DNA of 64,000 nucleotides from an uncultured Burkholderiales bacterium (GTDB taxonomy: Bacteria > Pseudomonadota > Gammaproteobacteria > Burkholderiales > Burkholderiaceae_C): the NCBI GenBank assembly GCA_937873395.1, contig CALMYH010000064.1, positions 1 to 64,000 of the forward strand, given 5' to 3'. The translations under genes and the position numbers were made by a program. The notes below the pieces were generated by a model. That model was not told the origin of the DNA, did not search any database, and saw nothing but the letters and a program-made list of their open reading frames with translations. How positions within the stretch are numbered: position 1 is the first letter of the stretch; each line of letters begins with the position of its first letter. Below are positions 6,192 through 8,506 of this stretch, piece by piece.

Positions 6192-7121
6192 TCAGCCCCA
6201 GTACAGCAGGGCGTCGCGCCCCTCCACCATCAGCGAGATGCGCTGCCCCACCGGCAGCAGCACTTTCGTGGGCACATGCCCGAAAGGCAGACCGGTCAGC
6301 ACCGGCGCCTTGACTTGGCTGCGGAGCCAGGCGACCACCGTCTGCAGCTTGAAGCCCCGGTCGTGTGGAACCGGCTTGTAGCGGTTGAACGCACCCAGCA
6401 GGATCGCCTTCTGTTTCGCCAGCACCCCCGCGTGCAGCAATTGCGTGAGTTGCCGTTCGATGCGATAGGGGTGTTCGTTCACGTCTTCCAGGAACAGCAC
6501 CCCCGACTTGATCGGTGGCAGGAACGGCGTACCGACCAGTGCGCTGAGCACCGAGAGGTTGCCTCCCCAGAGCAGGGCTTTGTCCACGCGCAGGGCCTGC
6601 GGCACGGGGGTGCCTGCCTGGGCAGCGCTTTTCAGGTCTGAGGCGGGCAGGCGCCATCCGCTGCCCTCTCCCTGGCCACACAGCAGGTCCTCGAAGCAGG
6701 CCTGCATGATCTCGTCGGGTTCGGGGGCTCCGAAATCCTCTCCCAGTGCCGGGCCCGCCCAGGTGGTCGCCCCGGTTTTGGCGAGCAGGGCGCACTGCAG
6801 GGCCGTGAAGTCGCTCAAGCCGACGAATTGTGTGCCTCTTTCGATGGCCTTCGCGAGCGGTCGGAAAGGCAGGTCAGGCAGTATCCGCGTCAACCCGTAG
6901 CCTCCCCGGGAAATCAGCGCCACATCGGCGCCGCTGGCGGCGGCCCGGCCGATGGCCGCCAGCCGGGTGGCATCGTCACCGGCGAAGCGCATATGACTGG
7001 AAAGCGCGGCTTCGTCGATCTCGACCTCATGCCCCAGGCTTTGCAGGCGTCGGAGGCCGCGACGGAACGCACTCTTGTCGCGCACGGCACTGGATGGGGA
7101 ATAGACGTAGATGTGGCTCAT
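6192..7121 (-). CDS. ldcA: Muramoyltetrapeptide (LD-) carboxypeptidase, peptidase family S66
   Basis: This 309-residue cytoplasmic enzyme removes the terminal D-alanine from murein tetrapeptides during cell-wall recycling. The Ser-Glu-His triad is visible: Ser103 in GLSDFTAL, Glu212 in [11 protein letters not shown] and His282 in [10 protein letters not shown], with spacing matching characterised LdcA proteins. Length is normal for the family. Its ATG overlaps the stop of the tadA fusion gene by four bases (ATGA), so translation is probably coupled, and it is the last gene of the guaB-guaA-tadA-ldcA run. Confidence 0.9.
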
Positions 7122-8506
7122 GCAGCCTCCTTGAAGTGTTCGAGCGCCAGCGCGGCCACCCCTTCTCCATGCTCCTGGACAAAGTGACCGGCCTCGGGGA
7201 GCAACACGGGGGGCGGACAGCCCCGAATGTCCTGGTGCAGCTGCCGCATCACGGCCTCGCCCAGCACCGGGTCGCGCTGACCGATGACCATGAGCGACCT
7301 GCCCCGCCAGCGCTCGCGCCAGAACTGCTGCGCCTCGCGCGAAATGTCGGCGCCCTCGCTGTCGGCAAACTCCGGCACCATGTCAGGAAAGGCCTGCAGG
7401 GCTGCCCGGTGGCCGCGATCCGGAAACGGCGCGTCGTAGGCTTGGCATTCCGCCACGCTCAGGTGGGGGTTGCCGCGCTGAAACAGGCGTCCGATGTCGT
7501 AGTCCGGACGCCGCCGGCACATGTCGCGCCAGTCCAGAAAGCCGGGCGACAAGGGTTCTTCCCCGGTCGCCAGCAGGGTGTTCATGATCAGCAGGCCCTG
7601 GTACCGATCAGGAGCCGCCAGGGGCAAGGTCAGGCCCAGCAGGCCGCCCCAATCCTGCACCACCAGCACCACCTGGTGAAGGTCGAGGCGCTCGACCAGT
7701 TCCAGCAGAACCTGCCGGTGCCAGCCGAAGCGGTGTGCCTGCCGCTTCTTGGGCTTGTCGCTTTTTCCGAAACCAGGCATGTCCGGCGCCACCACGCGAT
7801 CGCCAGCCGCCAGAAAGGCCGGCATCATGCGGCGGTAGAGATAACTCCATGCGGGATTGCCGTGCAGGCACAGCCAGGTCCGCGTGGCGTCTGCGGGGCC
7901 TTCGTCCAGGTAGTGCATGCGAAGCCCCGCCAGGGCAGGCAGATCGCTCACATAACGCGGCGACCAGGGGTAGCCCGGCAAGCCATCGAACCGTTCTCCT
8001 GGCGTGCGCAGTGCGTCCTCGCGCAGGGGGTGTGCATCCAACCGGCTCTTGACCCGGCGCTCCCGAAAAAAACCACCGAGCACAGCAGCACACTCCTGGG
8101 CCCGGACGCCGCCGAGTACGGCCGTCTGATGGTTCAGCCGAGGGTCCGAGAACAGGTCGACCACCGAGCCCGCCGCACCGGTCTTGGGATCGGTGGCGCC
8201 GAAGACCACACGCCGCAGCCGGGCATGCAGCATCGCGCCACTGCACATGGCACAGGGCTCCAGGGTGACGTAAAGCTCGCATTCCCCGAGGCGGTAGTTC
8301 GACAGGGTCCGGGCGGCGTCCCGCAAGGCGACGATCTCGGCATGTGCGGTCGGATCGTGCTCAGACACCGGCGCGTTCCGTCCTCGGCCCACCACGCGGC
8401 CCTGATGAACGACGATGGCGCCCACAGGGACTTCGCCTGCGGCCGCCGCCGCGCGAGCCTCCTCCAGGGCCAGCCCCATGTAATCGGTGTCGCTGCTGGC
8501 GGACAT
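7118..8506 (-). CDS. tadA: TadA tRNA adenosine(34) deaminase fused to a haloalkane dehalogenase-like domain
   Basis: This 462-residue protein has two complete enzymes. Residues 1-153 are TadA, which makes inosine at tRNA wobble position 34. Zinc ligands and proton shuttle are HAE (His55, Glu57) and PCAMC (Cys85, Cys88). Residues about 170-462 are an alpha/beta hydrolase very like haloalkane dehalogenase DhlA. They show [11 protein letters not shown] (oxyanion/halide region from His215), VVQDWGG (nucleophile Asp285, halide-binding Trp286), Trp326 in the cap, Asp412 (IGQRDPVLG) and His441 (AGHFVQE). The frame is open throughout, with no internal stop. I chose the ATG at 8506, 29 bases after guaA, because the longer open frame upstream only overlaps guaA antiparallel codons. 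Real dehalogenase activity is inferred; the substrate is unknown. Confidence 0.88.

Follow-up and report, generated by a model that had tools for sequence, protein, structure and literature searches.

A TadA–haloalkane dehalogenase fusion in Burkholderiales with repeated loss of the hydrolase active site and a possible accessory role of the hydrolase domain

We describe a gene that encodes the tRNA deaminase TadA joined in one frame to a haloalkane dehalogenase (HLD). It was found in the window, i.e. the whole stretch of 64,000 nucleotides that was analysed (positions 1 to 64,000 of contig CALMYH010000064.1, from an uncultured Burkholderiales bacterium). The fusion is widespread in the window's own Burkholderiales family (Comamonadaceae and relatives, called f1 below), the catalytic residues of its hydrolase half have been lost repeatedly, and non-catalytic segments of that half are under purifying selection. 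Judging from the sequences, we consider it rather probable that the dehalogenase domain has been taken over as an accessory module of TadA, likely one that binds the tRNA arm or steadies the TadA dimer, with catalysis repeatedly lost in lineages other than that of the window. No description of a TadA–dehalogenase fusion was found in the open-access literature, judged by title (preprints and most subscription journals lay outside the search), and the published literature that we searched yielded nothing on natural enzyme domains fused to TadA. Caution is also called for with genes that are likely named for one half, since they may encode the fusion, in which the dehalogenase half is frequently damaged.

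The fusion gene and its two halves

The tadA-HLD fusion gene lies on the minus strand at 7118..8506 (462 aa; from an ATG at 8506 to a stop codon at 7120-7118), and its unbroken frame gives a computed product of 51.0 kDa. The TadA domain (residues 1-157; 8036..8506, minus strand) is delimited by NF008113 and Foldseek, and the haloalkane dehalogenase (HLD-I/DhlA-type) domain (residues 164-462; 7121..8017, minus strand) by NF002043, by comparison with 2xt0 and DhlA, and by Foldseek. Both NCBIfam cut-offs are exceeded, in agreement with the initial annotation, which had read an unbroken frame of 462 codons joining TadA to a hydrolase. The two adjacent genes are on the minus strand as well: guaA (GMP synthase; 8536..10152, from the frame list and a profile search) lies upstream with a gap of 29 bp, and an LD-carboxypeptidase (S66) gene (6192..7121; NCBIfam score 287.8, under that model's cut-off of 378) overlaps the 3' end of the fusion gene by 4 bp. 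An LD-carboxypeptidase gene downstream of tadA is the usual arrangement in the inspected loci of relatives, fused and unfused alike, whereas guaA is close upstream in a minority of these loci only (flanks mostly 1.5 kb); gene order in relatives therefore does not support the tie to guaBA that had been suggested. Elsewhere in the window (4514-5455, minus strand) a long ORF resembles, by eye, an adenylate cyclase domain with an FHA domain after it.

TadA, from which the adenine base editors were derived, is an essential enzyme in most bacteria. The deaminase half matches NF008113 (TadA) over residues 4-154 with 197.8 bits (curated equivalog cut-off: 150) and has the zinc ligands H55, C85 and C88 and the catalytic E57, in the motifs HAE (55-57) and PCAMC (84-88); H55, E57, C85 and C88 are conserved in 212 out of 212 f1 fusions. 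In a search against solved structures, the closest TadA is that of E. coli (1z3a, 171 bits). The whole protein was modelled as an AlphaFold2 monomer from a 55-sequence alignment that included the window protein (mean pLDDT 86.8; pTM 0.66, the relative placement of the two domains not being fixed by the model), and Foldseek matched the TadA half of this model to 2b3j (S. aureus TadA-RNA; TMt 0.91) and 1z3a (TMt 0.88). The likeness to bacterial TadA comprises a complete deaminase half, the zinc ligands, the catalytic Glu and the fold, and the substrate of TadA, tRNA-Arg(ACG), is encoded in the source genome too; the solved TadA chains that were matched have 144-183 aa (227 for the base-editor chain 6vpc_E), whereas the window protein adds about 300 residues. 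No better second TadA was found in the same genome (99.5% complete), in which the other deaminase matches reach 36-37% over about 100 aa. We take the deaminase half to be TadA, and A34-to-I34 activity is predicted for it.

HLD-I enzymes have an Asp nucleophile followed by a Trp, a second Trp, an Asp acid and a His. The hydrolase half matches NF002043 (PRK00870, haloalkane dehalogenase; a subfamily-level model) over residues 164-460 with 309.6 bits (curated cut-off: 265), and the solved structures nearest to it are 2xt0 (348 bits) and DhlA (310 bits). The catalytic residues of DhlA that had been cited as kept are all there: in the alignment with DhlA and 2xt0, counterparts are found for Asp285 and Trp286 (both in the nucleophile elbow VVQDWGG, residues 282-288; 7643..7663), Trp326 (7529..7531; aligned with a Trp in both enzymes, which we take to be the second halide-binding Trp of DhlA), the catalytic acid Asp412 (7271..7273) and the catalytic His441 (7184..7186), all on the minus strand. 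This set of residues is the likeness to the HLD-I enzymes (DhlA; DppA, 2xt0; DpaA, 7avr), and Foldseek aligned the hydrolase half of the model with 2xt0 over the full length, cap included (TMt 0.92, rmsd 2.4, 296 columns; 52% identity in the structural alignment). The window protein differs from the HLD-I enzymes by the fusion to TadA and by its oxyanion loop, where N217 (HGNP) is found in place of the Glu of DhlA (HGEP). N217 presumably occupies the same position as N63 of the HLD-III enzyme DhmeA. Glu is not a strict family rule at this position, since the 26 unfused HLDs compared have 14 Glu, 8 Asn and 4 Gln. In DhmeA, a halide-binding residue is Asn (N63) (PMC10503415).

Distribution and origin of the fusion

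In the f1 search, 215 of the 399 sampled genomes had a match of 1e-65 or better that covered TadA plus the N-terminal half of the hydrolase. On reading, 211 of them contain fusions, including 85 intact and 126 damaged ones ("intact" meaning that D285, W286, D412 and H441 are all present); of the other four, G438 and G449 match in the hydrolase part only, G687 has a split ORF, and G729 is cut by a contig end. With one further diverged fusion (G474), the damaged total becomes 127 and the number of f1 fusions read 212. Altogether f1 loci were read in 243 of the 399 sampled genomes (213 of the 215 matching genomes, TadA-only genomes, and G474), giving 85 intact fusions, 127 fusions with lesions, 29 unfused genes and 2 unplaced cases (G729, G687); unfused f1 genomes are under-read in this set, and the ratio of intact to damaged is valid for fusions only. 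The supposition that the fusion may be common in related Comamonadaceae is supported. In a scan of named records, all of the best 80 of 532 relatives carry the fusion, and none of the 80 has lost W286 or a triad residue; the records are named Hydrogenophaga, Acidovorax, Curvibacter, Polaromonas, Rhodoferax, Ramlibacter, Ottowia and others, and one Ottowia genome accounts for three of them as separate contigs. We also note a single-contig g176 genome (G687, locus L377) with a 127-aa TadA ORF and a separate hydrolase frame, which is either a sequencing error or a real split, and a TadA of family f10 (L244; 345-aa reading), which lacks an SDKP motif in its tail and was treated as unfused with another tail.

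Outside f1, the fusion was found in a second Burkholderiales family (f3), in four out of five f3 genomes, via an order-wide sample of 399 genomes; the f3 fusions keep the catalytic residues and have no pair of lysines (KK) next to the SDKP motif (see below). A search of 369 genomes of the class gave nine matches at 1e-62 or better (a threshold that weaker, damaged fusions could escape): three are f1 fusions, and the other six begin at or after residue 148 and so cover the hydrolase alone. At that threshold, no fusion was seen outside Burkholderiales. The search for a viral copy returned one partial match only (35% over 88 residues).

The fused HLDs of f1 (21 sampled) group in a single clade with support of 98/97 and three standalone HLDs as sisters, and the f3 fused HLDs are placed elsewhere among standalone HLDs. 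A single origin of all fused HLD halves was rejected (p-AU 0.0036; 54 rows, with 21 of 100 f1 intact rows). The f3 TadA halves group with unfused f3 TadA (g74) with support of 100/99, which is cleaner than the topology test on the TadA halves (p-AU 4e-88), in which the test group contained the damaged fusion L099 and which is not a clean f1-versus-f3 test. Because the f3 HLDs sit apart and the f3 TadAs join unfused f3 TadA, the fusion was probably made at least twice, with f3 acquiring it independently. Without L099, the f1 fused rows form one clade (100/100) that also contains the unfused L134 (153 aa). L099 itself is at the base of a large unfused f1 clade; the fusion could be older than the split and have been lost in the unfused clade, or L099 could be a further case of fusion.

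Lesions of the active site and constraint on the remaining hydrolase

Among the 127 damaged f1 fusions, 117 have no nucleophile Asp, and in 103 the nucleophile, the acid and the His are all absent. The mildest lesions affect the nucleophile alone (L319, which has HGWGG with the acid and His present) or the His alone (L343), and in the severest ones the last third of the hydrolase is gone; the damaged fusions range from 271 to 579 aa. In most of the damaged loci inspected, the shortened ORF and the start of ldcA are at most about 150 bases apart. No remnant of the lost hydrolase C-terminus was found in another frame at the inspected loci (L086 and L240 have weak matches, in frame only). Part of the N-terminal half of the hydrolase is in another frame in L090, a damaged fusion that looks like plain decay. 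Residue calls in the C-terminal part depend on the alignment (H441 of L301-L304 and L306 is present in one alignment and a gap in another); the loss of the nucleophile does not differ between the two alignments. An extreme damaged fusion is L141, a TadA ORF of 579 aa whose start is uncertain and whose motifs LREDALRLP, SDKPRR and APYPDAGH have diverged strongly.

Intact and damaged forms are found side by side in 10 genera. A tree of TadA+LdcA was built from 220 rows, of which 100 are intact, 90 damaged and 30 unfused; on it, a minimum of 15 changes between the intact and the damaged state is required. If loss is irreversible the count rises, 23 maximal clades having damaged and no intact forms; the range of 15-23 is an estimate, several nodes of the FastTree tree being weak. 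The damaged state is common to whole clades (g196/g225, g9/g221/g226, and one with 16 rows from nine genera). With catalytic residues lost and the domain under purifying selection, the hydrolase halves of these relatives are pseudoenzymes; that of the window protein is intact.

We estimated dN/dS (Nei-Gojobori) from pooled within-genus pairs, 29 damaged and 28 intact, as point values without confidence intervals; L244 and L288 (the latter cut by a contig end) are outside these pairs and the residue counts below, and L141 was left out of the consensus. In the damaged pairs the TadA half has a dN/dS of 0.206. Several segments of the damaged hydrolase evolve about as slowly or slower (0.11-0.21): residues 237-254, which include GFGxSDKPKK (0.111), the segments WLCLHG..WS (LHGxxxWS; 0.162), APFPDxGHRA (0.165) and DLPAL..DEGP (0.190), and LREDALRTP (LRxDALRTP, residues 161-171; 0.214). 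Residues 173-191 (0.369), 255-276 (0.478) and 204-210 (0.565) are less constrained. The nucleophile elbow has 0.549 in damaged versus 0.115 in intact pairs, and the hydrolase C-terminal part 0.580 versus 0.262; constraint is therefore gone at the former catalytic site and kept in certain other segments. By dN/dS together with consensus, residue counts or pLDDT, three features kept in damaged fusions or typical of f1 fusions were placed on the minus strand of the window: the linker segment (residues 160-169; 8000..8029), the loop with K253 and K/R254 (residues 245-254; 7745..7774), and the segment with G365 (residues 359-368; 7403..7432). The oxyanion segment has a dN/dS of 0.043 in the 28 intact pairs. 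Since the triad of the window protein is intact and the nucleophile and oxyanion segments are strongly constrained in intact relatives, dehalogenase activity would be expected to be in use here, and the window protein is probably still a working, bifunctional enzyme, with dehalogenase-type activity predicted from its intact active site.

Some residues are typical of the f1 fusions. K253 is found in 85/85 intact and 122/127 damaged f1 fusions (Arg in the other five), and in none of the 26 other unfused HLDs (24 standalone and 2 from PDB; one has Arg), the three sister standalones and the four f3 fusions. Position 254 is K/R in 196 of the 199 f1 fusions compared (3 Gln) and D/E in 23 of the 26 unfused HLDs, i.e. 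unfused HLDs mostly have SDKP-x-D/E where the window fusion has SDKPKK. Gly is found at position 365 in 85/85 intact and 123/127 damaged f1 fusions, and in 0/33 of the unfused HLDs, sister standalones and f3 fusions. The change from a mostly neutral and an acidic residue to two lysines beside SDKP would suit contact with a polyanion, for which tRNA is the obvious candidate. Residues 248-253 are one of only two stretches (of at least 3 residues) with pLDDT under 50 in the AlphaFold2 monomer, and residues 361-370 have a mean pLDDT of 58; low values in these two places are compatible with surfaces that meet a partner, and may be a slight hint of them.

Possible roles of the hydrolase domain

In the account that we favour, a complete HLD-I-like dehalogenase would have been joined to the C-terminus of TadA early in f1, and the fusion-typical surface residues, namely the basic SDKPKK loop, the LRxDALRTP linker and Gly365 in the GHRA segment, would have been gained. 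The hydrolase domain may then have become an accessory module of TadA, with a surface centred on SDKPKK, LRxDALRTP and GHRA that serves the deaminase. Its role would most likely be to bind the tRNA arm or to steady the TadA dimer, dimerization or stability being the main alternative within this account. In many sister lineages the nucleophile, the acid and the His have been lost repeatedly with the putative accessory segments retained; in the window genome, the intact active site would make the protein bifunctional. A non-catalytic role is suggested because the hydrolase is damaged in 127 of 212 fusions and the non-catalytic segments are under purifying selection, and we infer that the retained segments serve TadA by contacting tRNA. 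Against this, the segments that are retained belong to the core motifs of HLDs as well and might merely keep a half-fold stable, residues 255-276 and 204-210 are weakly constrained, L134 is unfused inside the fusion clade, and L090 resembles decay. As the f3 fusions are intact and have no KK pair, contact with RNA fails to explain f3, and what drove the first step may have been co-expression or the function of the enzyme.

The initial annotation had offered a choice between a hydrolase activity tied to tRNA or nucleotide metabolism and an unrelated passenger. The fusion and the residues on which this choice was built stand; the choice itself is incomplete, a non-catalytic module role being indicated, and that interpretation was probably half right, the domain having turned accessory with enzyme activity optional, rather than being a plain passenger or a fixed metabolic link. 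If the activity were what matters, the substrate would be linked to tRNA, nucleotides or stress metabolites and the fusion would couple the enzyme to the expression or localisation of TadA. The fusion apparently arose at least twice with an intact enzyme, and the intact forms are strongly constrained at the elbow and the oxyanion segment, both of which fit this reading. Yet the catalytic residues are damaged in more than half of the f1 fusions that were read, which have nevertheless retained the fusion, so activity is not the general reason for keeping it, and we regard this explanation as unlikely. A neutral passenger decaying in place would account for many independent lesions of varied extent, from the single changes of L319 and L343 to the loss of the C-terminal third, for the disrupted frame of L090 and for the wide spread of lengths among damaged proteins; it is distinctly improbable given the low dN/dS of the retained segments in damaged proteins, the near invariance of K253 and the sharing of the damaged state by whole clades.

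Internal initiation or cleavage might also yield two separate proteins, one from each half. An ATG or GTG is found within residues 148-173 in 63 of 115 intact genes, but no position is common to most (the commonest, 156, has one in 30 of 115), the window gene has a single start-like codon at 145-175, the TTG at 156, the linker measure varies little (15-25, with a median of 19), and damaged forms need no separate enzyme; this explanation is very unlikely indeed. There is practically no chance that a sequencing or assembly artefact has joined two genes or hidden a break, an eventuality that had been raised at the outset: nothing was found in its favour, and it is excluded because the identical in-frame fusion recurs in many other genomes, including single-contig ones and named records of Hydrogenophaga, Acidovorax, Polaromonas, Ramlibacter, Curvibacter and Ottowia.

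The accessory-module account has partial parallels. Plant RIBA proteins are reportedly bifunctional proteins in which one fused enzyme half has lost catalysis and yet is still attached; a dead half that stays fused is the likeness, and the difference is that the RIBA halves share one pathway. In eukaryotic ADAT2/ADAT3, the tRNA is held by added basic segments, namely a KR motif and the ADAT3 N-domain (PMC9643335). If the retained segments do contact tRNA, both systems would be deaminases of the TadA type that hold the tRNA by basic parts added outside the core. The additions of ADAT2/ADAT3 (KR tail, ADAT3 N-domain) are unrelated and belong to a heterodimer with an inactive deaminase subunit, whereas the part added in the window fusion is a hydrolase, intact or damaged, and the two are not homologous as fusions. 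A bolder version, which we offer tentatively as a possibility, is that the dehalogenase fold was captured at least twice as a tRNA-binding subdomain of TadA, and that in f1 catalysis died repeatedly with the RNA-facing surface preserved. If true, this would be a bacterial counterpart of the ADAT3 solution, in which all stages between a bifunctional enzyme and a purely accessory domain can be seen. The intact, freshly inactivated and part-reduced domains of close relatives constitute a natural series on the role of an added domain in tRNA selection.

The f1 genera picked as TadA-only have unfused TadA in 29 of 30 cases, and the hydrolase module is therefore not required in general. A motif resembling IP(T/A/V)G(E/D)A-x-(E/H)L(D) recurs in the tails of the unfused f1 TadAs (L112-L140; about 20 out of 30 by eye) and is perhaps a short partner-binding peptide. 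The tails of three unfused TadAs (L114, L120 and L123, e.g. PLAGIDVRHLDEP) are similar by eye to the N-terminal segment of the hydrolase, and a fusion that was later lost may have left them behind.
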